A stretch of DNA of 64,000 nt from an uncultured Clostridia bacterium (GTDB lineage Bacteria; Bacillota; Clostridia; Oscillospirales; Ruminococcaceae). Every line of letters starts with the position of its first letter. Position 1 is the first letter of the stretch. The stretch lies in assembly GCA_947624745.1 (NCBI GenBank), contig CANQLR010000003.1:1-64000 (forward strand). Direction: 5' to 3'. The position numbers and the translations under genes are program-made. Positions 3,401 to 44,762 of the stretch are shown piece after piece. Below the pieces are notes generated by a model, which was given only the letters and a program-made list of their open reading frames with translations, did not search any database and was not told where the DNA came from.

Positions 3401-6400
3401 CCTCTGCCTCGGTAACGGTGTAAGTGATTCCCGCGGGGAGGTCGGTGGCGGTCTTGCTCTCGCCGTGCTTGAGGGTGAACTCTGACTTACCGTCGGTGAA
3501 GGTCATGCCTCCATAGACACCATTTATAGTGGTGTCGCTAAGGGTTACGGTGAAGGTGAAGTCTTTATTCGGGTCGCCGCCTTCGCCGGTGACGGTCTTG
3601 GTGACGGTCAGGCTGCCCTTGTCAATGTCCTTATCATTGATGAACTCGGCTGTCGCGGTAGCATCCTTGGCGATTGTGCCGGTCGCATTAGTTGCCGTTG
3701 TGGTGTAGTCGTCCTGATTAGCCTCGGCCTCGGTAACGGTGTAGGTTATGCCTGCAGGGAGGTCAGTGGCGGTCTTGGTGTCGCCGTGCTTGAGGGTGAA
3801 CTCTGCAACGCCGTTCTCGAAGGTCATCTCACCGTAAGTGCCGCTGATGGTCTTATCCGAAAGCTCAACTGTGAAGGTGAAGTCTTTATTCGGGTCGCCG
3901 CCTTCGCCGGTGACGGTCTTGGTGACGGTCAGGCTGCCCTTGTCGATGTCCTTATTGTTGATGAACGCGGCGGTCTTAGTCTCGCCCTTTGTAATCTCAC
4001 CGCTTTCACCCGAAGCGGTTGTGGTGTAGTCGTCCTGATTTGCCTCTGCCTCGGTTACGGTGTAGTTTATGCCGGCAGGGAGGTCGGTGGCGGTCTTGCT
4101 CTTGCCATGCTTCAGAGCAAATGTTGCTACGCCGTTTGCGAAGGTCATCTCACCGTAAGTGCCGCTGATGGTCTTATCTGAAAGCTCAACAGTGAAGGTG
4201 AAGTCTTTATTCGGGTCTCCGCCTTCGCCGGTGACGGTTTTGGTGACGGTCAGGCTGCCGACTGCGGTGTTCACGAACTCTACAGTGCTGCCGTTGGCGG
4301 ACCCGCTGACCATCATATCGCCGCTTGCAGTCTTCGCTCCGCCCGCGACGGAGGCCACATAGCCCGCAGCCGCCTTTTCGGTGACGGTGTAGGTCGTGGT
4401 TTTCGTCAGGTGGCTGAACGTGACAGTCTCGCCGGACTTAAGGGAGAATGTAAATGTGTTGCCGTTTTGCGCCACGTTTCCGCCGCCGGAATGAGTTATA
4501 GTGGGCGTTTCTTTGTTGCCAGCCAAGGTGACCGTGAACTCGAACGAATCGGTCGGATTGCCGCCGGTCGCGGTCTTTTTCACCGAGAAGCTTCCGAATT
4601 CGTCCTTGTGGTTAACGAACGCGGCAGTCGCGGGAATGTCCTTGGTGATCGTGCCCTTATCGCCTGTGGCGGTAGTGGTGTAGCCGTCCTGATTTGCCTC
4701 TGCCTCGGTGACCGTGTAGGTAATGCCGGTCGGGAGGCCGGTGGCGGTCTTGGTCTGGCCGTTCTTAAGAGTGAACTCTGCCACGCCATTCGTGAAGGTC
4801 ATGCCTCCACAGGTACCGTTGACAGACTTGTCGCTAAGGGTTACGGTGAAGTGGAAGTCCTTAGTCTTATCGGCATTATTGCCGGTGACGGTTTTCTTGA
4901 CGATGAGGCTGCCGGTGTCTCTGTCGTTGATGAACGCGGCGGTCGCGGGAGTGCCCTTAGTGATCGTGCCCTTATCGCCTGTGGCGGTAGTGGTGTAGCC
5001 GTCCTGATTCGCCTCTTTCTCGGTAACCGTGTAGGTAATGCCGGTCGGGAGGCCGGTGGCGGTCATGGTCTGGCCGTCCTTAAGAGTGAACTCCGCCTTA
5101 CCATCGGTAAAGGACATTTCACCATAAGTGCCGGATAACGCCTTATTAAGAGTTACGGTGAAGTGGAAGTCCTTAGTCTTATCGGCATTATTGCCGGTGA
5201 CGGTCTTGGTGACCTTGAGGCTGCCGACTGCGGTGTTCACGAACTCTACGGTGCTGCCGTTGGCGGGGCCGCTGACAGCCATATCGCCGTTTGCAGTCTT
5301 CATTCCGCCCTCAACGGAGGCCACATAGTCCGCTGCGGCCGCTTCGGTGACGGTGTAGGTCGTGCCAATTGACAAGTGCTCGAATGTAGCTTTCTGACCG
5401 CTTGTCAAAGTGAAAGCAAAGGTGTTTGTAGTGCCGTCTTTCGGCTTGATCGTTTCGCCGTTGGGACCTGTTACCTTAGGTGTTGCAGTGTTGCCATTCA
5501 AGACGACCGTGAAGTTGAACAGCTGGTTTGAATCAGTCTCGCCGACGACCTCCTTGGTCACGGAGAAGCCCGTAAATTCTTTCTTTTCGTTGGTGGCGGT
5601 AACGGTTACCTCTTTGTGAGAGGAATCTATCGTACCCTCGCCGTTTTTGATGGTACCCTCATAATCCTCCGACGTTGCCTCCGTTACGGTGTAGCGCGTT
5701 CCGAACTTAATGCCGGTGAACGTTACGGTCTCGTTTTGGTTGAATGTGACCATTCCGCCGGACTTGATCGTACCGTTGGTTCCGTTGCTGTTGGAATAGC
5801 TGTAATCCAAGTCAGTCAGTTCATCGGGGTCGGTGAACGTTACGGTGAAGGTGAACTCGGTGTCATCGCTCTCGACGGGATTTCCTTCCGGATCCGTAAC
5901 TTTCTTTGTAAGCGACAGCGAACCCACCCCGCGGTCATTGGTGACCGTGACAGTGTCGGTCTTATTCTTGGTAATAGTGCCTTGGTTTGTATTCTCGCTG
6001 TCGCTGGCGCCGGTCACCGTGCGGGTGTAAGTAGTGGTATACCCGTTCTCGTTCGCCTCGGTCTCGGTGACGGTGTAGGTGGTACCGACGGGGAGATCGG
6101 TTGCGGTCTTGGCCTGGCCGTTCGTAAGAGTGAAGGTCGCTACGCCTGCCTTGAACTCCATATCGCCGTATTTGCCGCTGATGGTCGTATCGGAAAGCTC
6201 TACCTTTAAGTTGAACTCCTTAGTCTGGTCGCCGCTATCGCCGGTGACAGTCTTTTTGACAATGAGGTCGCCGGTTTCCTTGACGGTGTTGGTGCAGTTC
6301 AGGGAGATGTTGGGCGTTCCGGCGGCTACGGTGCCGGTCGAGTTTTCCAGAGTTGACGTGTAGAGATGGTCATCAACGCCTGTTTCCTCGACAGCGTATT

Positions 6401-8633
6401 CGGTGCCGAGAGGAAGGTTTTTAATATTGATCTGCTCGTCCTTCTTGAGCTCTACGGTAACAACGACCTTGCCGTCCGAGATTTTCGCTGCGTCTTTAAG
6501 CTCGTCATTTCCCTTTGTGACCTTGATTGCCTCGCTAAGTTTCTCAGGAGTCGTTCCCTCGGGAGGCGTGAGCGTAACCTTGAATGTGAAGGTCTTGCCC
6601 GCTTCGACATCGCCGACAACTTCCTTCTTTAGGGACAGAGAGCCGGATTTTACCTCGTTGGTGAAATCTGCCTGCGACGGCATGAGCTGCGACGGCATGG
6701 ACGCATTAACCTTTTCCCATACTCCGGGCTCCTTCTCAACCATCCTCTCATATTTTAATCTGTTGTATTCTACGCCATCGATATTGTCTTTACCGTTATC
6801 GACATAGTAAACGACAACCTGGTCGCCGTTCGCTTCCTTGACAACCTTTTTATTTACGGGAACGGTGATCAGATATCTTGATTCATCGTAGTTATAAAGA
6901 ACATCGTCGCCCCGTACTTCTTCAATAACGTAATAATAGGTCCTTTTATATTCGTTTTCGGCAAAATCGTTATACTTGATCTCCGAGAAGTATCCCATTT
7001 TGCCGCCGGCAACCTCGATAGTCTCAAGCCATTTGCCAAGATTGCCGGATTCATCACTTTCATAAAGGTTAAATTTAAACGTATCGTCCGAAGAGACCTT
7101 ATTGCCCTGAGGGTCTTTAACTATCTTCTGTACCTTAGGCTTGAACGAGGCTTCGATCTTGTTGTCCTTTACCTGTCCGAAGAACAGGATACCGTTGTTC
7201 ATAATGCCGCCGCCGTGGGTGTTGGAGTAGTTGCCCTCGATAAACACATATGCAACCTCACGCGCATCATTAATATCATCCTGCGTAGGGTTTGCCTTAA
7301 GGCCGGAATAGTCGGTAGAGACAAAATCTTCGGTTATCGGATTTGTATATACAACTCCGTCAACATCGCCGGTCCATTTCGGATCAACAATTTGGCCTTC
7401 ATCTTGCTCTTCATCCGGTTTGCCGTTTTCGTCGATTGTTGTGCCGAGCATATAGGGGTGGATTATACTGCCGTTTGCGCAGAAATAGTCCTGATAAGGG
7501 CCTTCCGCGCCCAACCGGAACATGGGGTCGCTATTGTAGATCTCGTGATCCTTTGTCTTTACACTGTCGCCGCCCGAAAAATGATCGTCTTTTCCGTAGG
7601 CACGGTTTCCGTAGATGGCCGCGCCCTCGGTGCTCATTACATAGTTATAGCCGGTCGGGCAGCCCGCAAGACCGCCGCCGAAGCCCTCGGCGGTATTGTT
7701 ATAGATAACAGCGCTGTAAATGGTCAGAGTGGCGTCCTCGGAGACGAAGATACCGCCGCCGCCCCAGTCGCCCGGGTTGTTACAGTGATTGCCGGTGATG
7801 CGGATATCTTTGCCTTCGTCCGCCTTTATCGTGGCGGTAACGTCCGCGCCGATGCGGAGACCTCCGCCCTCTCTTTTCGTCGAAGTATTATTGGTTATAG
7901 TACCTCCGTGCATGGTGAAGGTAGTTCCCTGCTGCCACCATTTAAAGTTGGCGAAAATACCGCCGCCGGCAGCCGCGATATTGTTGCTTACATCGCCGTC
8001 GTTCATCTCAAAATTGCCGCCGGAGTATATACCGCCGCCGCCATACTCGCCCCATTTGCATTCTCCATTCAAATTGGCCTTATTATAAGTAATAGAGCCT
8101 CCGTTCAACGTCAAATGGGCGTACTCAGATGTGCAGATACCGCCGCCGTTGCCTTGGGTCTCATTTTGGGTAATGGTTCCGCCGTTCATGGTCACATAGG
8201 CGTTGTTTCCTGTGGCAAAAATAGCACCGTCTTTACTTTTTGTGTAAGTACCGCCGTTTATGGTGAGCCGGCCGCCGTCGTTGACCCTTATGATACGGTC
8301 GTTTTTATTATTCTGGTCTAACGTGCCTGTGCCGCTGATAGTAAGACTATTACCTGAATTAACAATGAACATAGAAAGATCGCCGTCGTTTGCACGAGTT
8401 TTTTCATTCTTGTTCGTGATAGTATGCCCATTCAGGTCAATAGTAACGTCCCCTTCTATATAGAGGGGTTCGCTGATAGTCACGTCATTATGCAGCGTGA
8501 TATTCCCGGTGACCTTGCCCTCAGTCTCCGGAAAATTTTCGTCCGCCTCAATGACCGGGCTGAAGCCGAGCTGTCCGACGGTCAGGCAAAAGGCCAGGAC
8601 CGCTGCCAAGACTCTCCTTAATTTCCCTTTCAT
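432..8633 (-). CDS. giant LPXTG-like surface protein: beta-helix head on a CnaB-like repeat stalk
   Basis: This is a cell-wall-anchored protein of about 2,733 residues. The start at 8633 (MKGKLRR) has AAGGAGGA 7 nt upstream and a signal peptide (about 1-30). Residues about 60-420 are short Gly-Gly-rich repeats (such as GGGIYSGG) typical of right-handed parallel beta-helix adhesins. After one longer pilin-like domain come about 18 repeats of 95-125 residues. Each has a first-strand Lys (SLTVTK), a Glu in the YTVTE strand and an Asn in the last strand (AAFIN), the Lys/Glu/Asn pattern of CnaB/SpaA domains that form internal isopeptide bonds. The C-terminus has NPATGD at about 2693, a hydrophobic helix and KKRKEK, a sortase signal. 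Repeats at 3295-4258 are nearly identical. No sortase gene is in the window. It is probably an adhesin holding the head away from the wall; the ligand is unknown. Confidence 0.9.
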   Translation of the reverse strand: MKGKLRRVLAAVLAFCLTVGQLGFSPVIEADENFPETEGKVTGNITLHNDVTISEPLYIEGDVTIDLNGHTITNKNEKTRANDGDLSMFIVNSGNSLTISGTGTLDQNNKNDRIIRVNDGGRLTINGGTYTKSKDGAIFATGNNAYVTMNGGTITQNETQGNGGGICTSEYAHLTLNGGSITYNKANLNGECKWGEYGGGGIYSGGNFEMNDGDVSNNIAAAGGGIFANFKWWQQGTTFTMHGGTITNNTSTKREGGGLRIGADVTATIKADEGKDIRITGNHCNNPGDWGGGGIFVSEDATLTIYSAVIYNNTAEGFGGGLAGCPTGYNYVMSTEGAAIYGNRAYGKDDHFSGGDSVKTKDHEIYNSDPMFRLGAEGPYQDYFCANGSIIHPYMLGTTIDENGKPDEEQDEGQIVDPKWTGDVDGVVYTNPITEDFVSTDYSGLKANPTQDDINDAREVAYVFIEGNYSNTHGGGIMNNGILFFGQVKDNKIEASFKPKVQKIVKDPQGNKVSSDDTFKFNLYESDESGNLGKWLETIEVAGGKMGYFSEIKYNDFAENEYKRTYYYVIEEVRGDDVLYNYDESRYLITVPVNKKVVKEANGDQVVVYYVDNGKDNIDGVEYNRLKYERMVEKEPGVWEKVNASMPSQLMPSQADFTNEVKSGSLSLKKEVVGDVEAGKTFTFKVTLTPPEGTTPEKLSEAIKVTKGNDELKDAAKISDGKVVVTVELKKDEQINIKNLPLGTEYAVEETGVDDHLYTSTLENSTGTVAAGTPNISLNCTNTVKETGDLIVKKTVTGDSGDQTKEFNLKVELSDTTISGKYGDMEFKAGVATFTLTNGQAKTATDLPVGTTYTVTETEANENGYTTTYTRTVTGASDSENTNQGTITKNKTDTVTVTNDRGVGSLSLTKKVTDPEGNPVESDDTEFTFTVTFTDPDELTDLDYSYSNSNGTNGTIKSGGMVTFNQNETVTFTGIKFGTRYTVTEATSEDYEGTIKNGEGTIDSSHKEVTVTATNEKKEFTGFSVTKEVVGETDSNQLFNFTVVLNGNTATPKVTGPNGETIKPKDGTTNTFAFTLTSGQKATFEHLSIGTTYTVTEAAAADYVASVEGGMKTANGDMAVSGPANGSTVEFVNTAVGSLKVTKTVTGNNADKTKDFHFTVTLNKALSGTYGEMSFTDGKAEFTLKDGQTMTATGLPTGITYTVTEKEANQDGYTTTATGDKGTITKGTPATAAFINDRDTGSLIVKKTVTGNNADKTKDFHFTVTLSDKSVNGTCGGMTFTNGVAEFTLKNGQTKTATGLPTGITYTVTEAEANQDGYTTTATGDKGTITKDIPATAAFVNHKDEFGSFSVKKTATGGNPTDSFEFTVTLAGNKETPTITHSGGGNVAQNGNTFTFSLKSGETVTFSHLTKTTTYTVTEKAAAGYVASVAGGAKTASGDMMVSGSANGSTVEFVNTAVGSLTVTKTVTGEGGDPNKDFTFTVELSDKTISGTYGEMTFANGVATFALKHGKSKTATDLPAGINYTVTEAEANQDDYTTTASGESGEITKGETKTAAFINNKDIDKGSLTVTKTVTGEGGDPNKDFTFTVELSDKTISGTYGEMTFENGVAEFTLKHGDTKTATDLPAGITYTVTEAEANQDDYTTTATNATGTIAKDATATAEFINDKDIDKGSLTVTKTVTGEGGDPNKDFTFTVTLSDTTINGVYGGMTFTDGKSEFTLKHGESKTATDLPAGITYTVTEAEANQDDYTTTATDDEGTITKDAPATAAFTNTKNQYGVLKVTKTVSMGDAEDYEKLFNITVELDDKTVTGDHSAVNASVKVNFVDGVATFQIKANQTVTIEKLPVGVGYTVTEAEAGQDGFATTYNGVVATEDGAKGKIAASEQTVEIVNSKTPQVGSLTVTKKVSGGTAEGKTFTVIITLNTTSDKVVVPAGVTKEIGAESTVITAAIPADGSVTIGNIPAGTTYTVVEDETSKVGYIGVVSYDDDDKVIEADGTDTVTVTNTVEQKFGSLTLTKTVTGALGDRNTDFTFTVVLDGDGIADSYSTGEKTFSKADGNIFTVKLKSGESFTFDKLPAGTKYTVVEVEAGADGYTTTAKVNGTVVEGATANGTIPADASENVEYINEKSAPNETDLTVTKHVVGDFPADRFTFTVTLSDTAINGAYGDMTFVNGVATFDLGNGESATATKLPVGITYTVTEDAKDFIAADSGNTTGVLTAESVKVEFTNTKTISKDTSLTVRKTVQGDDADLTKPFNFTVTLSDTTINGIYGEMEFVGGVATFTLANGESKTAAGLPEGTGYTVTEAEANLDGYTTTDSGNTAGTLISGTPVVVEIINARWQTIPETGSLSVTKQVTGDGADMMQRFTFTVMLSDNSVTGQYGDMFFNGGVAIITLSHGMRATASGLPANVGYSVVENDYGDYIPQAINQSGVIPSGGSADVVYINHKDNEYGSLSVQKTVVGEGFDPNQVFNFTVTVDDPTVSGRYGEMSFSGGVAHITLRDGQVMTASDLPANIGYTVTEEEVENFTQSSTGASGIIPANAGATAQFVNTYEAPAVGSFSLTKIVTGTAAEMDRTFTFYITLSDANINGVYGQVAFTAGTATVYLRHGQTIYADGLPEGTSYSISEVDSGDYTVIASGQVGVIMQGVYGNATFINLKNAPEELQESRVPYGEDMNAGVGGDRNRPHGDDMNPATGDYELEMYSNAFAIITVLWAMVFIFGAVVIVKKRKEK
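3295..4258 (-). repeat. three near-identical 321-bp tandem repeats inside the surface-protein gene
   Basis: Three consecutive 107-codon units begin SLTVTKTVTGEGGDPNKDF and are nearly identical in DNA. The stretch encoding GEGGDPNKDFTFTV recurs around 3560, 3880 and 4200, a 321-bp period. The flanking units are far more diverged, so this triplication is recent or has been homogenised by recombination. Confidence 0.85.
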
Positions 8634-11043: not shown

Positions 11044-11739
11044 ATGAAGAAAATTATATGCGCGGCCGTTGCCGTCGTGATGGCGCTTTCGCTCGCCGTA
11101 GTCGCCTTTGCCGATTACGACCCCGCCGCCACCCTCGGTATCCAGGTCGGCGACATGAACAACGGAGGCTGGGGCTACTCCGAGACCGTAGAGGTCGCCG
11201 CTCCCGGCACCTACACCCTTACCTATGAGGGCGAGGAGAGATCGCTCAGCTGGATAGTCATCAAGTCCACCGACGACAACCGCGACGGCACCGCCGTTAT
11301 CGACACTGCCATTCCCGCGGGCACCGTTATCCGCATCACCTCTCTTGAGATCGACGGCAAGGCCTATACCTTCGACTCCGGCGACAGCTATGACACCAAG
11401 GTCAGCTTCAGCGGCGGCGTTGAGGTACAGCCCTACAACACTTTCTCGAGCAACAACCACATCGTCGACATTCCTGCTGCCGCCTCCAAGGTCGTCATCA
11501 CCTTTGTCGTAGATCCCGATAACGCTCCCGCCGAGGGCGCCGCTCCTGCCGAGGACGCCGCTCCCGCCGAGGACGCTGCTCCCGCTGAGGACGCTGCTCC
11601 CGCTGAGGACGCCCCTGCCGCCGAGACCGCTCCCGCTGCCGAGGAGAACACCTCTGACGCACCGTCCACCGGCATTGCGCTGATGGTGCTTCCTGCGGCC
11701 GCCGCGCTTTGCGCCGTAGCTGTCTCCAAGAAGCGCTAA
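11044..11739 (+). CDS. small secreted protein with APAED linker and PSTG sorting-type tail
   Basis: This 231-residue protein starts at 11044 (ATG with GGAGG 8 nt upstream) and has a signal peptide ending near AFA-D. Residues about 24-160 form a beta-rich domain with AAPGTYTLTYEG, reminiscent of small carbohydrate-binding or sugar-sensing modules, but the family is not certain. An acidic Ala/Pro linker follows in which the 6-residue unit APAEDA repeats about five times, encoded by near-identical 18-bp repeats. The C-terminus has APSTG, a hydrophobic helix and SKKR, a sortase-type signal. It is probably displayed on the wall. It is monocistronic. Confidence 0.8.
   Translation: MKKIICAAVAVVMALSLAVVAFADYDPAATLGIQVGDMNNGGWGYSETVEVAAPGTYTLTYEGEERSLSWIVIKSTDDNRDGTAVIDTAIPAGTVIRITSLEIDGKAYTFDSGDSYDTKVSFSGGVEVQPYNTFSSNNHIVDIPAAASKVVITFVVDPDNAPAEGAAPAEDAAPAEDAAPAEDAAPAEDAPAAETAPAAEENTSDAPSTGIALMVLPAAAALCAVAVSKKR
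11520..11625 (+). repeat. 18-bp tandem repeats encoding APAEDA
   Basis: Near-identical 18-bp units built on CCCGCCGAGGACGCTGCT encode the acidic linker of the surface protein. Copy number is likely to vary by slippage. Confidence 0.8.
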
Positions 11740-11837
11740 GCGCGGAGAGGACAGATGTCGGAGGTCGGAATTTCAAGGAGCCGCCTGCGGCAAAATCGAA
11801 AAAACGCTCTGACACGGCAAAACAATTTAAAAAGAAA

Positions 11838-11867
11838 CGGCGCGGAGAAACTCCGTGCCGCTTTTTT
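11838..11867. terminator. bidirectional terminator between convergent genes
   Basis: CGGCGCGGAG, AAA, CTCCGTGCCG form a 10-bp stem with one wobble, with a T run on the plus side and an A-rich run on the other. Confidence 0.8.
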
Positions 11868-11875
11868 GTGCATTT

Positions 11876-13111
11876 TTATTCCTCTTCTCTGCGAAGAAGC
11901 TTGTTCATCTCCTCTGCCGCGGCCTTGCCCATGACGTCGTAGCCGCTCGCGTTGGGGTGAAGCCCGTCGCCCGAGTCGTAGACGGTCTGGAGCATCTGCG
12001 GGCGCTCGGCGTAGCTTGTCACCGAGGCGAAGTCGATAAAGCCGTCGAAGCCGCTGTCGGGACTCATTATCCACTCGTTCACCGACTTTCTTATCTTCTC
12101 GTGGAGCTCGCTGTACCACGTTTCGTTCCCGCCGAACGGGGTGATCGTCCCGCCGTAGATCTTGATCCCCCGCTCGTGGCAGAGCTTTATCATCGCCTTG
12201 TAATCCTCCTTGAAATCCTCGGTGGTGTCGTACTGCGCCCCGGGGATATCGTTTGTCCCGATGAGGATTATGACGTGGTGAACGCCGGGAATGTCCAAAA
12301 CGTCCCGCTCGAAGCGCTCGAGCGCGGGGGTGCCCCAACCGCCGTGTATCGCGTTTCCGGCGATGGACGTGTTCACGACCGAAAGATAGCTGGTCGCGGG
12401 GTCGGACTGCATAGCCTTTGAAAGATTGTCCGGCCATGAGTCGAAGCCGTTGAAGGTCGAGCAGGCGCCGTCCGAGATGGAATCGCCGAAGCAGACGAGA
12501 GTTTCGGTGCCGGCGGGCGCCCAGGTGTCGAGGCGGCAAAGTCCGTACCAGCTCGCGCTTAAGCCCATCGTCGAGAAGCTCTCCGCCGAGACCTGATCGC
12601 CCTCGACTATCCATGTTGTGCAGTCGGCCTCGCGGTGACAGGTCGGAAACACCGGAACCGAGCCGAATTTCGTCGTGACCGCAAGGTAATCAAGACTTGA
12701 AAACTCGAAGGAAATTTCGTCGGAGGTCACGGTGCCGCCCGCGCTTATTTTGACCTTTTCCTCGCCGCCGAATGTGACCGGCGTGTCGGTGTCGGGATAA
12801 ATTTCGGGGCTCCCCGGCGACCTCAGCTTCGCGATGTGGACCGATTCGAGGGTCATCGCCGAGTCGGAATACTCGTTCGAGAAGCTGAGGCGTATTTTTG
12901 AGCCGCCGATTGACACCCGAAGCTGCTGGCGGCAGGTGTTCCCGGAGAGTATCGGCGCCCTCGGGACCTGCTCGGCCTCGCTTTCGAGCGGCGCCGCCGC
13001 CCATGTGCAGTACCAGCCGTCGGCCGGCTCGATCTTCACGCGTTTTTGGCAGCCGACCGTGCCGAGGCAAAGCGCCGCGCACACCGCCGCCGTAAGGATT
13101 TTTTTCAGCAT
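11876..13111 (-). CDS. SGNH/GDSL-family hydrolase lipoprotein
   Basis: This 411-residue lipoprotein starts at 13111, where GGGGTGAT precedes ATG; the lipobox ends GTVGC with Cys21. An N-terminal beta-sandwich (about 35-195) precedes the SGNH hydrolase domain. Catalytic blocks are GDSIS (Ser211), GTND (285-288) and DGLHP (Asp382 and His385). This arrangement is common in secreted acetylxylan or acetylglycan esterases, which fits the plant-glycan enzymes in the window, although lipase or peptidoglycan esterase activity cannot be excluded. It should sit on the outer face of the membrane. It has its own promoter. Confidence 0.9.
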   Translation of the reverse strand: MLKKILTAAVCAALCLGTVGCQKRVKIEPADGWYCTWAAAPLESEAEQVPRAPILSGNTCRQQLRVSIGGSKIRLSFSNEYSDSAMTLESVHIAKLRSPGSPEIYPDTDTPVTFGGEEKVKISAGGTVTSDEISFEFSSLDYLAVTTKFGSVPVFPTCHREADCTTWIVEGDQVSAESFSTMGLSASWYGLCRLDTWAPAGTETLVCFGDSISDGACSTFNGFDSWPDNLSKAMQSDPATSYLSVVNTSIAGNAIHGGWGTPALERFERDVLDIPGVHHVIILIGTNDIPGAQYDTTEDFKEDYKAMIKLCHERGIKIYGGTITPFGGNETWYSELHEKIRKSVNEWIMSPDSGFDGFIDFASVTSYAERPQMLQTVYDSGDGLHPNASGYDVMGKAAAEEMNKLLRREEE

Positions 13112-13149: not shown

Positions 13150-13178
13150 ATTTTACCACGAATTGGGGGAATAGTCAA
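13150..13178 (-). promoter_or_regulatory. sigma-A promoter of the SGNH lipoprotein
   Basis: On the minus strand TTGACT (13173-13178), 17 nt, TAAAAT (13150-13155). Confidence 0.75.
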
Positions 13179-13239
13179 TAATTTTGGGGAAATTGGGGGA
13201 AAGAAGGTTGGTCGACAGTAATTTGCCACTGTAAAGCAT

Positions 13240-14040
13240 AAATACTAAAAAGGGTTCGCCGGCCTTTCCTCAAAAGGCCGCGGGGTCGAGGGGCAGAGCC
13301 CCTCGTCGCCCGTCGCAACGGGCGAAATACCTCAAGCGTAAGCAAGCGCAGGACGGGGAGGAGCAATCAGCCCGCCCTCGGGCGAAGCCGCCGCTCCGGC
13401 GGGTTCGCTGCGCAACTGGCACTAAGGTACGAGTCAGAAGTCGCTCTGCCGTTGCGTTCTCGACGGGGGTTCCCTATTTGCCGAGCGATGAGCAAGGCAA
13501 AGAAAAGCCGGAGATGTATCTAAGGGAGACTGTTGGGCTCAAGGCAGGGGGTTACTATCCGAATTTGCCGAGCGATGAGCGAGGCAAACGCTGCACTAAG
13601 GTGGGGATAAGTTTGGGGTGGGAGCTGCGCTATGGGTGGGGGCGAAGCCCGGGTGCGCCTGCGGAGCAGGCGCACCGCCCGACCCGCTTGCGGGTCGGGC
13701 GAGGCGGCCGCGGAACGCGGTCGCCCGTGCGGTTTCTTGCGTAAAGATAGACCCCCTCCCGGCGGGAGGGGGCAAACGCGGGGCTGCAGGTCTGCGCAGA
13801 GTTTGGAGGGGGTGGGGTTGAAAATAGCATGAGCGAGCTCGCGAGCGAATACCTTATGCCGATTCGCCCGGTGTCTGCTCAAACTTGCAGATTTTCAGCA
13901 GAGTCCGACAAGCTACCCCCTCCCCACCGGGGAGGGGCAGGGTTAGGGCTTGAGATAGCACGATCTCACTTACCTCTGCCTCCTCATAACAAATATTCCT
14001 TCGCCTCACCCCCCGTTTTTTCTGCGAACCAAAATTTTTT
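13240..14040. repeat. repeat island 1: noncoding, hairpin-rich interspersed repeats
   Basis: About 800 bases without a credible gene. It contains perfect hairpins (13264-13280, 13289-13304, 13653-13675, 13677-13700, 13708-13720), two direct copies of TTTGCCGAGCGATGAGC (near 13487 and 13564), a 116-bp module shared in inverted orientation with island 2 (13738-13853), and an inverted copy of the G-rich hairpin module near 13913-13965. Short open frames here, including one at 13478-13744, follow the repeats and look spurious. Confidence 0.8.
13738..13853 (+). repeat. 116-bp interspersed module, copy 1
   Basis: Aligns without gaps, at about 86% identity by eye, to the reverse complement of 26393-26508. 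It contains the hairpin CCCCCTCCC-GGC-GGGAGGGGG and the conserved string AGAGTTTGGAGGGGGTGGGG. The hairpin loop and the following 10 bases are the most variable part. Confidence 0.85.
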
Positions 14041-14050
14041 AAAATTTTTT

Positions 14051-14068
14051 TGCAAAGTCTACCTTGCA
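14051..14068. promoter_or_regulatory. palindromic operator upstream of the XRE regulator
   Basis: TGCAAAGTCTACCTTGCA reads as the near-perfect palindrome TGCAAnGTnnACnTTGCA, centred about 32 nt before the start codon. The position suits autoregulation by the XRE protein; binding is inferred. Confidence 0.5.
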
Positions 14069-14091
14069 CTTTTTGAAGGGGAGGGCCGGTT

Positions 14092-15411: not shown

Positions 15412-15960
15412 TTATAAATTTTGATGGTGAATAAAATCTGTCTTCCGACTTCTCATATCTGTTTTCTGACAGCGTTCGTCCGTCACGATGTGCTCCACCC
15501 CGGCGTGCTCGGTCATGAGATACTCCCGCAAAAACGTCGGGTAAGCCTTATATTTCCCGATATCCGAAATAGGCACCCAGATCATCTTCTCCCGTACCCC
15601 TTGGGTAAAGCTGTCGCTTTTCAGTATCCGCGTACCCCTCGGCTTCATCAGAAAATAGAAGGCGATCTCGTGGCAGTCCATGCCTTTTAACGATCCCGAG
15701 CTTTCCGAGAAGAAGTTTTCGTGGATCACCGCGAGCCGATCGACATCGTATTCCACCCCGGTCTCCTCAAAGACCTCCCGCTTCACCGCGTCCTCCGCGG
15801 TCTCGCCCATATGAACGGCACCCCCGACCGAGTAGAGATAATCGGCCCTGTCGTTCCCGGCAAAAAGTACATATCCGTCCTCGATGATGATCGCCGCGGC
15901 TCTGTATCTGAACCATCTATTGCCGTCGGTAAACCCGCAGTTATGCTCGTCTTTCGGCAT
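15412..15960 (-). CDS. Nudix hydrolase
   Basis: This 182-residue protein has a complete Nudix box from Gly47 (GAVHMGETAEDAVKREVFEE then TGV), which binds Mg and cleaves nucleoside-diphosphate-linked compounds. Flanking strands AAAIIIEDGYVLF and HEIAFYFLMK fit a compact Nudix domain with no extra domain. The C-terminal tail after about residue 160 is polar and overlaps a purine-rich repeat (see findings), so the last 20 residues may be a recent extension. The start is 13 bases from the stop of threonine ammonia-lyase, with AAAGGAG. The substrate is unknown. Confidence 0.9.
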   Translation of the reverse strand: MPKDEHNCGFTDGNRWFRYRAAAIIIEDGYVLFAGNDRADYLYSVGGAVHMGETAEDAVKREVFEETGVEYDVDRLAVIHENFFSESSGSLKGMDCHEIAFYFLMKPRGTRILKSDSFTQGVREKMIWVPISDIGKYKAYPTFLREYLMTEHAGVEHIVTDERCQKTDMRSRKTDFIHHQNL

Positions 15961-15973
15961 GGCTTCTCTCCTT

Positions 15974-17173
15974 TCAGATGAGCTTGAACCCCTCCTTGAC
16001 GAGGGCGTTTTTGATTTGGGCGATGTGCTCGAAGTTTCTGGTCTCGAGGGTGAGCCGCAGGTAGCAGCCGTTTACGTCCGCGCCCGCCCCGGAATGCTCG
16101 TGGAAGACTGCGGTGACGTTGCCGCCCTGTTCGGCGATGATCCTCGAAACGTTCATCAGCTGGCCGGGTTTGTCGACAAGTTCGATCTTGAGCTGGCAGT
16201 TTCTCCCGGACATAAGAAGGCCGCGGGTGATGACTCTCGAAAGTATCGTCACGTCGATGTTTCCGCCCGAAAGCAGGCAGACCGTCTTTTTGCCCTTGAG
16301 GTCGACCTTGTTGAACATTGCCGCCGCGACGGACACCGCGCCCGCGCCCTCGGTCACGAGCTTGTGCTGCTCCATAAGAGCCAAAATTGCGGCGGAGATC
16401 TCGTCGTCGGTCACGGTGACTATCTCGTCGACGTAATTTTTCACCGTTTCATAGGTGAGGCTGCCCGGCTCCTTTACCGCGATGCCGTCGGCGATGGTAA
16501 AAACGCTGTCGAGCTTTTCGACGTGCTCGTCCTGAATGGAGCGGAGCATCGAAGGCGCGCCGGATGCCTGAACGCCGTAGACCTTGATGTTCGGGTTGAG
16601 GTTTTTGACGGTGTAGGCGATCCCCGAGATAAGCCCGCCGCCGCCGATCGGAACGATGACCGCGTCCATGTCGGGTATCTGCTCGGCGAGCTCGAGCGCG
16701 ATGGTGCCCTGCCCCGCAATGACGTCGGGGTCGTCGAACGGGTGGATGAAGGTGTAGCCGAACTCGTCCCGAAGCGAGAGGGCCTTCTGGTAGGCGTCGT
16801 CGTAAACTCCCTCGACAAGGCAAATTTCCGCGCCGTAGCTCCTTGTGGCCTCGACCTTGGAAATGGGGGCGCTGTCGGGCAGGCAGATGACCGATTTTAT
16901 GCCGTTTTTCTGAGCCGCTAGCGCCACACCCTGGGCATGGTTCCCCGCCGAGCAGGCGATGACGCCGCGTGCGCGCTCCTCCGAGGACAGCCGGGACATC
17001 TTGTAGTACGCGCCCCTGACCTTGAACGAGCCGGTGATCTGCAAATTTTCGGTCTTGAGCCAGAGGTCGGTGCCGGGGGCGAGCTTCGGGGCCCGCAGCA
17101 CGTCGGTCTGTATCGCGACGTCCTTGAGGGCGTACCGCGCACGGTAGACGTTGTCAAGCGTTAATTCTGACAT
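15974..17173 (-). CDS. ilvA: threonine ammonia-lyase with C-terminal ACT domain
   Basis: This 399-residue PLP enzyme deaminates threonine to 2-oxobutanoate. Lys51 in SFKVRGAY binds PLP, CSAGNHAQG (74-82) and GGGGLISG (177-184) bind the cofactor phosphate, and a single ACT-type domain from about 325 gives the compact ilvA_1Cterm/TdcB-like form. It may serve isoleucine synthesis or catabolic threonine use; no other ilv genes are nearby. It leads the ilvA-nudix-ridA run, with its own promoter at 17214-17242. Confidence 0.93.
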   Translation of the reverse strand: MSELTLDNVYRARYALKDVAIQTDVLRAPKLAPGTDLWLKTENLQITGSFKVRGAYYKMSRLSSEERARGVIACSAGNHAQGVALAAQKNGIKSVICLPDSAPISKVEATRSYGAEICLVEGVYDDAYQKALSLRDEFGYTFIHPFDDPDVIAGQGTIALELAEQIPDMDAVIVPIGGGGLISGIAYTVKNLNPNIKVYGVQASGAPSMLRSIQDEHVEKLDSVFTIADGIAVKEPGSLTYETVKNYVDEIVTVTDDEISAAILALMEQHKLVTEGAGAVSVAAAMFNKVDLKGKKTVCLLSGGNIDVTILSRVITRGLLMSGRNCQLKIELVDKPGQLMNVSRIIAEQGGNVTAVFHEHSGAGADVNGCYLRLTLETRNFEHIAQIKNALVKEGFKLI

Positions 17174-17242: not shown

Positions 17243-17258
17243 GGGGGAGGGGTCCACG

Positions 17259-17368
17259 GGGAGTGTCCATTCTGACCACATTATAAAAAATTTTGTCTGA
17301 TGATTTGCCGCTACTAATTGTTTTCCTTTCCGCACTTTTCACTTAATGTGGGCGGGTTGGACACACCC
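17259..17368 (+). mobile_element. 110-bp MITE-like element, copy 1
   Basis: Bounded by GGGAGTGTCC and GGACACACCC, with inner arms CCACATTA and TAATGTGG. It is the reverse-complement counterpart of 44581-44690, the same length and nearly identical through the centre (for example TTTTGTCTGATGATTTGCCG). No open frame. It ends 14 nt upstream of the -35 box of the next gene. A non-autonomous transposon remnant is the simplest reading; no target duplication was seen. Confidence 0.75.
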
Positions 17369-17382
17369 TCCGCTATTCCCCC

Positions 17383-25084: not shown

Positions 25085-25610
25085 AAAGCTTGTCATGACG
25101 GCGCTTTTCACGGCGATCGGACTGCTTCTTCCATTTATTACCGGAAATATCCCAGAGATCGGCAAATATCTCTGCCCGATGCACCTGCCGGTCTTTCTCT
25201 GCGGACTTGTCTGCGGGCCGGTCTGCGGGGCTGCGGCGGGGGTGATAACGCCGATCCTGCGGGGGCTGCTGTTCGGCATGCCCGCGCTCTATCCGAACGC
25301 GGTTGGCATGGCGTTCGAGCTTTTGGGCTACGGCTTTTTCTCGGGACTGATATATAAGCTGCTTAAGCAAAAAAACACCGCGGCGGTGTATATCGCGCTG
25401 ATCCCGTCGATGCTCCTCGGGCGGCTGATCTGGGGCGCGGCTCGGCTCGTGATGCTCGGCCTAAGCGGCCCCGAGACCGCGTCCTTCGGCCTTGCGTATT
25501 TCTGGACCGACGGCTTTCTGAAGGCAATTCCGGGGATAATTTTGCAGCTGACCCTCATCCCGGCCATCATGGCGGCGCTCAGAAGGGCGGGGGTGATGAA
25601 GGAGGGGTAG
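25065..25610 (+). CDS. ECF transporter S component
   Basis: This 181-residue membrane protein has about six helices. The motif order IGKYLCPMHLPVFLCGLVCGP, then LRGLLFGMPALYPNAVGMAFEL, is typical of an ECF S-component subgroup of unknown substrate; given its place behind ApbE, a flavin or precursor is plausible. It overlaps the Gx gene by 20 bases. No ECF A/A'/T genes are adjacent, so it would use a shared energising module. Its TAG stop lies inside the left arm of a hairpin cassette (GGGGTAGGGCGAAGCCC), so the last codons may be repeat-derived. Confidence 0.85.
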   Translation: MTKPGLRKLVMTALFTAIGLLLPFITGNIPEIGKYLCPMHLPVFLCGLVCGPVCGAAAGVITPILRGLLFGMPALYPNAVGMAFELLGYGFFSGLIYKLLKQKNTAAVYIALIPSMLLGRLIWGAARLVMLGLSGPETASFGLAYFWTDGFLKAIPGIILQLTLIPAIMAALRRAGVMKEG

Positions 25611-25700
25611 GGCGAAGCCCGGATGCGCGCGGAGCGCGCACGTACCCTCCGCGCTTGTGCGGCGGGTATGGCGGCAGTGGAACTGCCGCCCGGGCTTCGC
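25610..25700 (+). repeat. hairpin cassette A
   Basis: Bracketed by GGGCGAAGCCCGG and CCGGGCTTCGC. Inside are TGCGCGC-GGA-GCGCGCA, a TACCC...GGGTA hairpin and GGCGGCAGT-GGA-ACTGCCGCC. The left arm begins on the stop codon of the ECF S component gene. Confidence 0.8.
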
Positions 25701-25805
25701 ACGTGCTGATTCTGCACTTTACTGCAGTAGAGCAGAGAGCTGGGCGAGAGTAAGTTGGGACACGGGAGAGGGACAGACGCCAAAGGTTGAGTGGAGGCAC
25801 TGACC

Positions 25806-25957
25806 GGGGCGAAGCCCCAAAGCCCATGAAATGGGCTTTATCCGCCGATGGATAGGTTAGTGCAGTCTTTTTAAAAGGCAGGGAATTCGACGTTTTGCAA
25901 AGCCTTGTAATACTACGATGGCGGGAATCGCGCCGAGGGCGCGATTAGGGCTTCGCC
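25806..25957 (+). repeat. 152-bp interspersed module, copy 1
   Basis: Starts with GGGCGAAGCCCC plus the hairpin AAAGCCCAT-GAA-ATGGGCTTT and runs through TCTTTTTAAAAGGCAGGGAA, AAGCCTTGTAA, the hairpin TCGCGCC-GAG-GGCGCGA and GGGCTTCGCC. The same order appears at 44143-44295. Shared blocks are conserved while hairpin arms differ. Confidence 0.82.
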
Positions 25958-26207
25958 GCGCGGGGGCTGCGCTTTGCGGCTCTAATGCAGTAAAGTGCTG
26001 GCCTGTACGTGCAAGTATAGGCAGGGAAGCGGGTGATTTTGCAAAAATTTGGGAGAGGCATGGGGCGGGGCGAAGCCTCAACATTCGCGGAGCGAATGTT
26101 GTCCGCCGTGGGAAAGGTTAGCGCTTTCGTCGCGAACGGAACAAATTTCGACATGAAACAAAATAATGAAAACAGTGCAACGGCGGGTAGCGCGTTGAAA
26201 ACGCGCT

Positions 26208-26332
26208 AAGGGCTTCGCCCCTGCTCCCTGCTCCTTACCCAACTTTGATGTAGCCCAACCTTGCGCATAAGGGATTCGCTTCGCTCATGCTATCTCAAGC
26301 CCCACCCCTGCCCCTCCCCGGGCGGGGAGGGG
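26208..26332 (+). repeat. G-rich hairpin module, copy 1
   Basis: Reads GGGCTTCGCCC, CTCCCTGC, CCTTAC, ATTCGCT, GCTCATGCTAT, AAGCCCCACCCCTG and then the hairpin CCCCTCCCC/GGGGAGGGG. The counterpart is 44286-44412, and an inverted partial copy lies near 13913-13965. Confidence 0.8.
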
Positions 26333-26392
26333 TCGCCCGTCGAACTTTCCTGAAATATACATGCTTGAGCAGAACCCGGGCAAGCCGTAAAA

Positions 26393-26508
26393 GGTATTCG
26401 CTCGCACGCTCGCTCATTCTATTTTCAGCCCCACCCCCTCCAAACTCTGTGCAGACCTATAGCTATGTATCAGCCCCCTCCCATCGGGAGGGGGCCTATC
26501 TTTACGCA
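26393..26508 (-). repeat. 116-bp interspersed module, copy 2
   Basis: Inverted relative to 13738-13853, with the same length and no gaps. Includes the hairpin CCCCCTCCC-ATC-GGGAGGGGG. Confidence 0.85.
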
Positions 26509-26515
26509 TGAAACC

Positions 26516-26612
26516 GGGGGCGAAGCCCCGAGGCGGCAGCTCCGCTGCCGCCTCACCCGCCGAGCTTGCTCGGCGGGTGGCGCGCACTCCGTGCGCGCCC
26601 GGGGCTTCGCCC
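26516..26612. repeat. hairpin cassette B
   Basis: Bracketed by GGGGGCGAAGCCCC and GGGGCTTCGCCC. Contains GGCGGCAGC-TCC-GCTGCCGCC, CACCCGCCGAGCTTGCTCGGCGGGTG and GCGCGCAC-TCC-GTGCGCGC. Its right arm overlaps the TAG stop codon of spoVAE on the minus strand. Confidence 0.82.
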
Positions 26613-29479: not shown

Positions 29480-29624
29480 ATAGCAAAACGGCATTTTGAA
29501 GTAGAGACTGTGCTGCTACGCACCCTTTGGGTCAAAAGAAATGCGGGAAGGGGCACACCCGCCAAAATGCAGTATCTGCCCGCTTTGGTCTTTCAAGGCG
29601 GGCTGTTTTTCGGGAGGCGAGGAT
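29480..29624 (+). promoter_or_regulatory. structured leader with attenuator upstream of uvrC
   Basis: The leader carries CAAAA-CGGCA-TTTTG, ACCC-TTT-GGGT, a GCGGG...CCCGC hairpin (29543-29562) and a strong terminator (29578-29610) ending 14 nt before the uvrC start. GCGGG at 29543-29547 could instead pair with CCCGC at 29579-29583 and break the terminator. I recognise no known riboswitch class. Alternatively it is a small RNA with read-through into uvrC. Confidence 0.55.
29578..29610 (+). terminator. intrinsic terminator immediately before uvrC
   Basis: GCCCGCTTTG pairs with CAAGGCGGGC (one wobble) over a 6-nt loop, then TGTTTTT. Confidence 0.82.
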
Positions 29625-43938: not shown

Positions 43939-43970
43939 AAGAGAAGAAGCAAACGGTAATGATATAAAGG

Positions 43971-43998
43971 AAAAAAGCAGGCGGGGGCCTGCTTTTTT
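43971..43998 (+). terminator. terminator of argCJBD
   Basis: AAAAAAGCAGGC, GGGG, GCCTGCTTTTTT: a perfect 12-bp stem including the A and T runs. Confidence 0.9.
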
Positions 43999-44018
43999 GC
44001 GGGGGTGTGAAGGGCAGT

Positions 44019-44110
44019 GGGGGCGAAGCCCCGAGGCGGCAGCGGAGCTGCCGCCTGTTCGGCCACGGAGTGGCCGAACGTGAGCCGAAGGCGAACACGG
44101 GGCTTCGCCG
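44019..44110 (+). repeat. hairpin cassette C
   Basis: Bracketed by GGGGGCGAAGCCCC and GGGGCTTCGCC. Inside are GGCGGCAGC-GGA-GCTGCCGCC, GTTCGGCCAC-GGA-GTGGCCGAAC and a weak hairpin around GCC-GAA-GGC. Confidence 0.82.
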
Positions 44111-44142
44111 CGCGGGGGTCTGCACGAGCTGGAGTGGGGGCA

Positions 44143-44295
44143 GGGCGAAACCCCAACGCTCGCAGAGCGAGCGTTGTCCGCCGTCGGAGAGGTCAGCGAG
44201 GTCTTTTTAAAAGGCAGGAAATTCGACGTTTTTCAAAGCCTTGTAAATTCTGCGACGGCGGGAATCGCGCCGAAAGGCGCAATTAGGGCTTCGCC
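44143..44295 (+). repeat. 152-bp interspersed module, copy 2
   Basis: Same order as 25806-25957: GGGCGAAACCCC, hairpin CAACGCTCGC-AGA-GCGAGCGTTG, TCTTTTTAAAAGGCAGGAAA, AAGCCTTGTAA, and GCGCC-GAA-AGGCGC-type hairpin, then GGGCTTCGCC. Confidence 0.82.
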
Positions 44296-44412
44296 CTCAC
44301 TCCCTGCGCCTTACAGAATTTCGTTATAGCCCCGCATAGGTTGCTATAAGGTATTCGCTCCGCTCATGCTATTTTAAGCCCCCACCCCTGCCCCTCCCCG
44401 TTGGGGAGGGGG
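44286..44412 (+). repeat. G-rich hairpin module, copy 2
   Basis: Counterpart of 26208-26332, ending in CCCCTCCCC-GTT-GGGGAGGGG. Confidence 0.8.
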
Positions 44413-44460
44413 TTCTCGCCGTACTTTCCTGCCTCAATACCACTAAAGTTCAGAATCTGC

Positions 44461-44557
44461 GTGGCGAAGCCCCAGGCGGCAGCTTCGCTGCCGCCGCGCC
44501 AAATCCGCAAGCGGATTTGGCTTAGGCGCCCTTAGGGCGCCTCGGGGCTTCGCCCCA
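44461..44557 (+). repeat. hairpin cassette D
   Basis: Left arm GGCGAAGCCCC and right arm GGGGCTTCGCC enclose GGCGGCAGC-TTC-GCTGCCGCC, GCCAAATCCGCAAGCGGATTTGGC and GGCGCCC-TTA-GGGCGCC. Confidence 0.82.
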
Positions 44558-44580
44558 CCTCCACCTGCCCCACCCCAAAA

Positions 44581-44690
44581 GGGAGTGTCCAAACCTCCCA
44601 CATTAAGTGAAAAGTGCGAAAAGGAAACCGGTTAGTAGCGGCAAATCATCAGACAAAATTTTTTATAATGTGGTCGGAATGGACACTCCC
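44581..44690 (-). mobile_element. 110-bp MITE-like element, copy 2
   Basis: Reverse complement of 17259-17368, with ends GGGAGTGTCC and GGACACTCCC. It ends 12 nt upstream of the -35 box of the flavodiiron gene. No open frame and no clear target duplication. Confidence 0.78.
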
Positions 44691-44702
44691 CCAAACTCCC
44701 CC

Positions 44703-44731
44703 TTTACAACTTCCCCATTCTGTGCTATAAT
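44703..44731 (+). promoter_or_regulatory. sigma-A promoter of the flavodiiron gene
   Basis: TTTACA, 17 nt, TATAAT. Confidence 0.8.
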
Positions 44732-44762
44732 ACACCTATAAAAATCCACCAGGAGGCAAAAT

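Follow-up and report, generated by a model that had tools for sequence, protein, structure and literature searches.

Integron attC sites conserve the fold of a single strand while their sequences vary. The intergenic cassettes described here resemble them in combining variable sequence with a conserved fold, but unlike attC arrays, the islands in which they lie hold hardly any genes (i.e., according to our gene model). REP, BIME, and REPIN sequences are extragenic palindromes with short loops that occur in high copy numbers and mosaic clusters and are often species specific, as outlined in PMC3733652. The cassettes share this general character but have no GTAG/CGTC foot, no conserved arm letters, and no intact Y1 transposase in the genome from which the analyzed DNA comes; instead, they form a fixed chain of three arms within inverted brackets, with loops in both orientations. 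Bacterial MITEs (Correia/NEMIS, ERIC, RUP, and CIR) are likewise intergenic and structured, measure about 100 to 150 bp, and have inverted ends. However, the cassettes lack target duplications, their sequences are not conserved between copies, and they have three arms, whereas PMC2229807 describes a single stem-loop made by the two MITE ends and, for CIR, two arms. Mitochondrial hairpin elements of sponges and Allomyces are short, intergenic, lineage specific, and composed of one to three hairpins. The stems of the sponge elements (RHE) are their conserved part and the loops their variable part, as reported in PMC2800124, while cassette stems vary in pairs and cassette loops remain GNA-like. 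Finally, DNA polymerase template switching homogenizes the arms of inverted repeats and inverts their spacers (described in PMC8604942). Perfect arms, loop inversion, and conservation above that of the surroundings are common to such repeats and the cassettes, but template switching is a mutational process, not an element, and accounts for neither the three arms nor the constant bracket. A search of the open-access literature (i.e., outside subscription journals and preprints) revealed no element of this kind.

The window (i.e., the whole 64-kb stretch of DNA analyzed) contains five sites that share one bracketed multihairpin design, and a direct reading of all five bears out the original prediction in this respect. 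A constant inverted bracket, GGGCGAAGCCC…GGGCTTCGCCC (in short, GGGCGNAGCCC), encloses exactly three hairpins, not "two or three" as first counted. Every site has GGGCGAAGCCC or a near form followed by three hairpins, and four of the five also carry the inverse bracket in perfect or mildly decayed form. The sites lie in three intergenic repeat islands delimited by the gene model (no strand is assigned to any of these features), which are mosaics in which cassettes are intermixed with linkers and with a 150-bp sister element whose brackets match those of the cassettes and whose middle arm is long.

Island 1 (13160 to 14091; 932 bp) contains a partial cassette (13638 to 13725) together with other repeat modules. 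Its left bracket is at 13640 to 13650 and its right bracket is absent; arms 1 and 2 are perfect, and the third has one G-T pair. Island 2 (25611 to 26611; 1,001 bp) is flanked by convergent genes for an ECF transporter S component and SpoVAC/SpoVAEB. Cassette 1 (25610 to 25702; 25610 to 25700 in the original prediction) has its left bracket at 25610 to 25620, starting on the final base of the TAG stop of the upstream gene, a decayed right bracket (GGGCTTCGCAC) at 25692 to 25702, and an imperfection in the middle of its three arms. It is followed by two copies of the 150-bp element (25806 to 25957 and 26068 to 26220) and by cassette 2 (26516 to 26612; brackets at 26518 to 26528 and 26602 to 26612), the arms of which (loops in parentheses) are GAGGCGGCAGC (TCC), ACCCGCCGAG (CTTG), and GGCGCGCAC (TCC). 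Island 3 (43939 to 44762) has an aminotransferase gene on one side and a flavoprotein gene on the other, and a short open reading frame called within it (44364 to 44510) is probably spurious. It comprises cassette 3 (44019 to 44110; left bracket at 44021 to 44031, right bracket GGGCTTCGCCG), with two perfect arms and an imperfect third, a 150-bp element (44143 to 44296), and cassette 4 (44461 to 44557; brackets at 44463 to 44473 and 44544 to 44556), with arms GGCGGCAGC (TTC), GCCAAATCCG (CAAG), and AGGCGCCC (TTA). The inner hairpins, previously described as perfect, are so throughout cassette 2 and nearly so in cassette 4, but not in cassettes 1 and 3; likewise, the predicted left bracket holds, exactly or in a near form, at all sites, while the right one deviates in those same two cassettes. 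Nor do the stems differ in every cassette as had been stated, since the arm GGCGGCAGC/T is present in four of the five; the arms form a limited repertoire that is combined differently from cassette to cassette.

Each bracket is nearly palindromic and, as had been proposed, can form a mini-hairpin of its own, yet pairing between the left and right brackets is also possible. In the minimum free energy state of the four complete window cassettes, folded as DNA or as RNA, it is this mutual pairing that prevails and, with the three arms, produces a four-way junction (i.e., a cloverleaf). The DNA fold z scores of these cassettes ranged from -7.6 to -10.5, and none of 200 shuffles of each folded as well.

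In the genome from which the window derives (G000; 2,573,951 bases), the exact 13-mer GGGGCGAAGCCCC occurs 99 + 94 times and a reversed control 0 times. We selected segments by both brackets alone and counted hairpins afterward, with 20 shuffles of each segment. Three hairpins were found in all 24 segments from the G000 stretches analyzed (0.1 expected from shuffles), in all 14 segments of stretches L207 to L220, and in 92 of the 94 distinct segments from other Clostridia among the matches listed (3 expected), where the pattern scan (at least 102 stretches) used a length window that favors about three arms. An earlier hairpin parser had undercounted three-arm segments (18/24 and 65/96) because neighboring stems overlap. 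Inverted neighboring bracket pairs with spacings of at most 400 bp numbered 57 in the G000 stretches; 27 of them had spacings of 77 to 86 bp and 21 had spacings of 140 to 148 bp, the latter mostly representing the 150-bp element; spacings fitting one arm (34) or two arms (61) were found for one pair each. Neighboring brackets 71 to 99 bp apart were inverted (><) in 24 cases and direct in 1, which speaks against a CRISPR array with its regular direct repeats, in agreement with the original prediction.

The abundance of perfect hairpins (stem of at least 8, 3-nt loop) was 266 per 458,562 bases, compared with 9 to 13 in three Markov shuffles, in a sample composed of the window and 20 stretches that had been picked for bracket hits. 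A bracket-independent search for three-arm chains, in loci also mostly fetched by bracket, recovered 150 chains with a closing stem in 92 loci and none in one shuffle per locus; GCGAAGC was located within the closing stem of 137 of the 150 chains. The constancy of the bracket is partly circular, most cassettes having been retrieved through it. With bracket-blind detection and by our reading of the resulting list, GCGAAG closings were present in 8/8 chains from genome G018, where brackets had played no part in the choice of most stretches. In bracket-chosen stretches, such closings were counted for 6/7 chains in G010 and 2/4 in G004.

The sequence d(GCGNAGC) is a known ultrastable DNA mini-hairpin, and selection at the RNA level would be expected to prefer GNRA or UUCG tetraloops. 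In the cassettes, 235 of 282 triloops were GNA or TNC (47/58 in G000 and 188/224 in other Clostridia, among the matches listed), and a C-G pair closed 51/58 and 219/224 of them, respectively. The two loop orientations were represented by 23 and 24 loops in G000 and by 71 and 117 loops in the others (among the matches listed). Four-nucleotide loops (mostly CTTG/CAAG) closed the middle arm in 21 of 42 G000 cassettes and just one outer arm out of 84. Non-Watson-Crick pairs were rare (4/685 in G000 and 10/2,540 in other Clostridia, among the matches listed), and only 2 of these 3,225 pairs were G-T. For comparison, 122 putative terminators from the same stretches, which were uncurated and in which as many as two wobble pairs per terminator were tolerated, contained 60 G-T and 31 A-C pairs among 1,081. 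The near absence of G-T pairs and the GNA/TNC triloops favor a structure that acts at the DNA level rather than at the RNA level. No Rfam gathering match to cassettes was obtained in the window and six further stretches, and two islands gave weak subthreshold matches only (best E value, 0.2); the sole gathering match in the window is a skipping-rope RNA (RF02924; 62.5 bits) at 29491 to 29570. A T run (TTTT within 12 nt), as in intrinsic terminators, was missing at 95 of 96 cassette ends, and for just 4 of 42 cassettes was a gene 3' end located no more than 60 bp away. The transcript search that had been suggested presumes an RNA, and the scarcity of G-T pairs speaks against one.

Paired change was evident in the 150-bp element. 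In an alignment of 24 copies (22 script-aligned copies, minus the composite row L019:13447, plus three window copies), 95.4% of 916 cells were paired, and 21 of 39 pairs had changed on both sides, a number reached in 0/500 shuffles and compared with 1 to 7 pairs in partner-sliding controls. One of five measures (i.e., further pair types) was not above shuffles (364/500). G-T pairs made up about 2% of arms 1 and 3 (5/207 and 4/240), exceeding the cassettes. Such covariation would suit a structured RNA and is equally expected of a DNA structure. Among the 31 genomes of the genus, the 150-bp element matched in G000 alone, at 27 places. One copy (L021:15693-16066) is split by an insert, forming nested repeats. 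A second small element (about 108 to 280 bp) ending in GATATGGAGCTTGCGACGACG lies within cassettes and 150-bp elements, either at the tips of hairpins or in the middle arm (e.g., L013, about 11789 to 11901; L021, about 15740 to 16020; and L011, about 12620 to 12888; also L197, L204, and L206). It carries a ribosome-binding-site-like AGGAGG plus ATG, has 23 exact ends in G000 and 1 to 2 in six other genomes, and in G011 lies within an apparent mobilization relaxase gene (identified by eye). A 2.4-kb intergenic gap (L011:11617-13975) contains repeat modules followed by AT-rich sequence with a resolvase-like fragment, as judged by eye.

With a simple gene model that had the stretches as its training set, 20 of 21 of which had been picked for bracket hits, 160 of 164 brackets were intergenic, and they occupied 47 of 198 gaps of at least 60 bp. 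Bracket-bearing gaps measured 0.25 to 2.4 kb; bracket-free gaps had medians of 139 to 251 bp. Of 31 genus genomes (G000 included), 15 carried inverted bracket pairs at cassette spacing, with 71 pairs in G000, 98 in G018, 66 in G020, and 2 to 16 in the others; the remaining 16 genomes had 0. In stretches of the bracket-free genomes G001 and G009, no three-arm chain was detected (0/7). A class-wide sample yielded matches in 2 of 391 genomes, namely, G000 and one site in G060. In addition, RUG14213 (G446) has eight bracket pairs, all with three hairpins. Its loci have GC contents of 33 to 38% and AT-rich arms (e.g., CCAAAAACC, GCAAAGC, and CAAAAGGCT), with the GC-rich bracket unchanged. Proteins from two of these loci had best identities of 40 to 69% to the part of the genus genomes that was compared (69 to 93% for a locus of a genus relative), and RUG14213 probably belongs to another genus. 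The pattern is thus broader than originally stated; further copies with preserved pairing were found in related genomes, neither being absent nor diverging without it. Of 16 distinct non-Clostridia segments among the matches listed, 2 had three hairpins, 2 had two, 7 had one, and 5 had none. One of the two with three is Viridilinea L074, where the hairpins are short and repeated, and the lone viral-contig match has one hairpin. Plasmid and phage records contained nothing similar to the 1-kb island 2. The cassettes are a real, unusual family of uncultured gut Clostridia, present in some members of one genus and in at least one probable further genus.

One cassette occupies an equivalent position in six species, where it follows a PhoU gene and precedes a response-regulator gene that has a sigma-70-like promoter; the other five species are 91 to 93% identical to G000 over this 1.7-kb region. 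Invariant columns amounted to 55/57 in stems, 22/22 in brackets, 4/9 in loops, 0/2 in linkers, and 99/130 in flanks (stems versus flanks, Fisher P = 3.5e-4). The two variable stem columns are at arm ends and uncompensated. In G028, the arm 1 loop is GAA instead of TTC, an exact inverse and the sole loop inversion at this site. A seventh species (G016) retains both flanks but has about 944 bp between them, compared with 232 bp. Near-perfect arms and one clear loop inversion established by orthology are the signature of template switching, which we infer to be their cause.

We also compared 155 cassettes having flanks of at least 400 bp with matching flanks in other species. At orthologous sites (A to F), cassettes had related or different arms. 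Related arms with paired changes were found at some sites (e.g., L041, GCCCGCCC; L063, GCCCGTCC; both perfectly paired), different arms at others (L039/L095 and L049/L184), and partly related arms at a four-species site (L016/L026/L064/L075). Some sites lacked the cassette and had a gap of 8 to 86 bp (L032/L037; L075 versus L016, L064, and L026; L080/L007; L120/L016; L185:17678/L019; and L042/L184), with L042 and L185:17678 carrying other closing stems; at others, the cassette was absent from longer gaps (L026:1023/L016, L184:12036/L042, and L185:14729/L019), and a few further comparisons had loose gaps. Whole-cassette inversion between species was considered at site A (inverted, 30.5 versus 24.0; best background, 29.0) and site C (25.0 versus 20.5; best background, 23.5; n = 4) and is not claimed, since the inverted scores barely exceed the best background. 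For the window sites, 20 regions of relatives (two of them short, at 1,061 and 567 bases) contained no match to the far-side genes of either island 2 or island 3, so no empty version could be read there. On the SpoVAC/SpoVAEB side, 1 of 10 regions (G018) had a cassette with other arms and nine had no bracket; on the flavoprotein side, 0 of 10 regions had a bracket.

Within G000, 12 flank-matched cassette pairs, which reuse sites and are not independent, had wholly different arms in 7 cases, partly different arms in 3, and the same arms in 2 by our classification. Wholly different arms between the same flanks are in line with the replacement of inner hairpins envisaged in the original prediction. 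For example, L020:11342 and L022:8234 match at 79% across 188 columns that run through the left bracket, their arms fail to align, and the alignment resumes in the right flank (87% over 39). None of four junction-spanning candidates represented a clean empty site within G000. Non-pairs increased with bracket loss, from 5/776 in intact cassettes (scored with a softer mismatch penalty) to 33/1,294 in those with a degenerate partner and 15/376 at solitary brackets, which suits maintenance of whole cassettes, or age. Pair-preserving divergence and the near-fixed stems at the PhoU site speak for the predicted selection on structure but do not prove it, because template switching, the arm-homogenizing process of PMC8604942, can alone keep stems perfect.

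Since template switching explains neither the number of arms and the constancy of the bracket nor the copy number and the swapping, we propose a DNA element. Our reading, to which we assign a probability of roughly 0.5, is that the cassettes are cloverleaf-forming intergenic DNA elements whose stems are kept perfect by template switching together with selection on the fold and which are exchanged at their brackets. The element would be about 82 to 105 bp long, and either strand could fold into the four-way junction. Its constant closing stem, GGGC-GNA-GCCC, would pair with its inverse, each half also being a mini-hairpin, and its three arms would mostly end in GNA triloops (TNC on the opposite strand). 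It is as DNA, single stranded or extruded, rather than as RNA that this structure would matter. A polymerase pausing at an extruded arm may switch template to the opposite arm or strand and copy one arm onto the other, sometimes inverting the loop; arm letters would consequently be free to follow genome composition, with pairing kept nearly perfect. Recombination at or near the brackets would exchange whole three-arm cassettes between sites, new copies would occasionally arise at fresh intergenic sites, and copies losing a bracket would decay. The folded cloverleaf would thereby be the unit kept and exchanged, with the bracket as the recognized or recombining part. Most copies are presumably selfish or structural rather than gene regulatory.

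Other explanations fit parts of these data. A functional RNA (e.g., a 3'-untranslated-region stabilizer, a transcription barrier, or a small RNA) whose pairing is kept by RNA-level selection would agree with the strong covariation in the 150-bp element, with the near-fixed cassette between the PhoU gene and a promoter-like site in six species, and with the identical cloverleaf obtained by RNA folding. Nevertheless, we regard it as unlikely given the lack of wobble tolerance, the triloops in both orientations, the Rfam results, and the scarcity of T runs and of nearby gene 3' ends. Purely mutational palindromes, which template switching both makes and polishes without any function or element, also seem rather improbable to us. 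Arm homogenization with spacer inversion (including GAA/TTC at yeast inverted repeats) is a known signature in PMC8604942, and the inverted repeats of Nematomorpha mitochondria are also perfect, with function-free conversion among the possibilities discussed in PMC6649704. This process would not, however, predict exactly three arms in inverted constant brackets at two composition extremes, arms that change while the bracket stays, putative terminator hairpins that retain mismatches in the same stretches, or more mismatches where a bracket is lost.

Mobile elements of known types seem less likely still. Inverted ends, many copies, and orthologous sites both filled and empty would suit a miniature inverted-repeat transposon that relies on a DDE or other transposase acting in trans, but this is quite unlikely: across 48 cassettes (96 ends), there were 0 target duplications of at least 5 bp (shuffled mean, 1.85) and 4 of 4 bp (5.68), TA was within 10 nt of only 10 ends, no flank motif emerged, and the internal sequence is unconserved. 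Elements of the REP/BIME/REPIN kind mobilized by a Y1 (TnpA-REP) transposase would likewise be extragenic hairpins in mosaic clusters, the inverted hairpin pair at the cassette ends is REPIN-like, and G018, with its 98 bracket pairs, has two stop-free Y1 matches. Yet this origin appears very unlikely, and the original prediction had likewise recognized no REP pattern. The foot motifs GTAG and CGTC were present in only 1 and 2 of the 96 end flanks (10 nt each), respectively. A search for Y1 (PF01797) gave matches in 8 of 19 genus genomes; G003, G005, G007, and G010, with 8 to 16 bracket pairs, had none, and G000 has, genome-wide, no intact copy but a broken remnant with several stops (G000:C14:2928-3259), so that a Y1 transposase was rejected as the mover. 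Furthermore, TnpA-REP reads one strand, and reverse complementing the loop inactivates one studied enzyme (PMC8266576), whereas cassette loops occur both ways.

Returning to the proposed DNA element, a bolder version, which we put forward tentatively and consider doubtful, is that the cassettes constitute a heritable class defined by its fold and not by its sequence, with a constant bracket recognized by a protein of the host or of the element, free arm letters, and swaps via recombination on folded DNA. Such a fold-defined character may make them a class of their own. If this is right, they would offer a test bed for whether cruciforms and multiway junctions form and serve in bacterial chromosomes, for how genomes are shaped by template switching, and for the inheritance of an element by shape alone. 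They also call for caution in RNA motif searches, in which cassette covariation would score as structured RNA even though the evidence points to DNA.

Other repeats were observed in the window. Another island repeat family is represented at positions 13260 to 13510; its three short hairpins have loops of 5, 3, and 4 nt, and it is present in several copies across the G000 stretches. A 112-bp repeat with ends GGGAGTGTCC/GGACACTCCC is present at 44580 to 44691 and 17258 to 17369 (93% identical), with a further 83% match at L016:17357-17512, and is MITE-like in appearance. A tandem repeat with an 18-bp unit is located at 11523 to 11648, and a very long minus-strand gene (432 to 8609) contains seven copies of an internal 264-nt repeat that are 65 to 85% alike.
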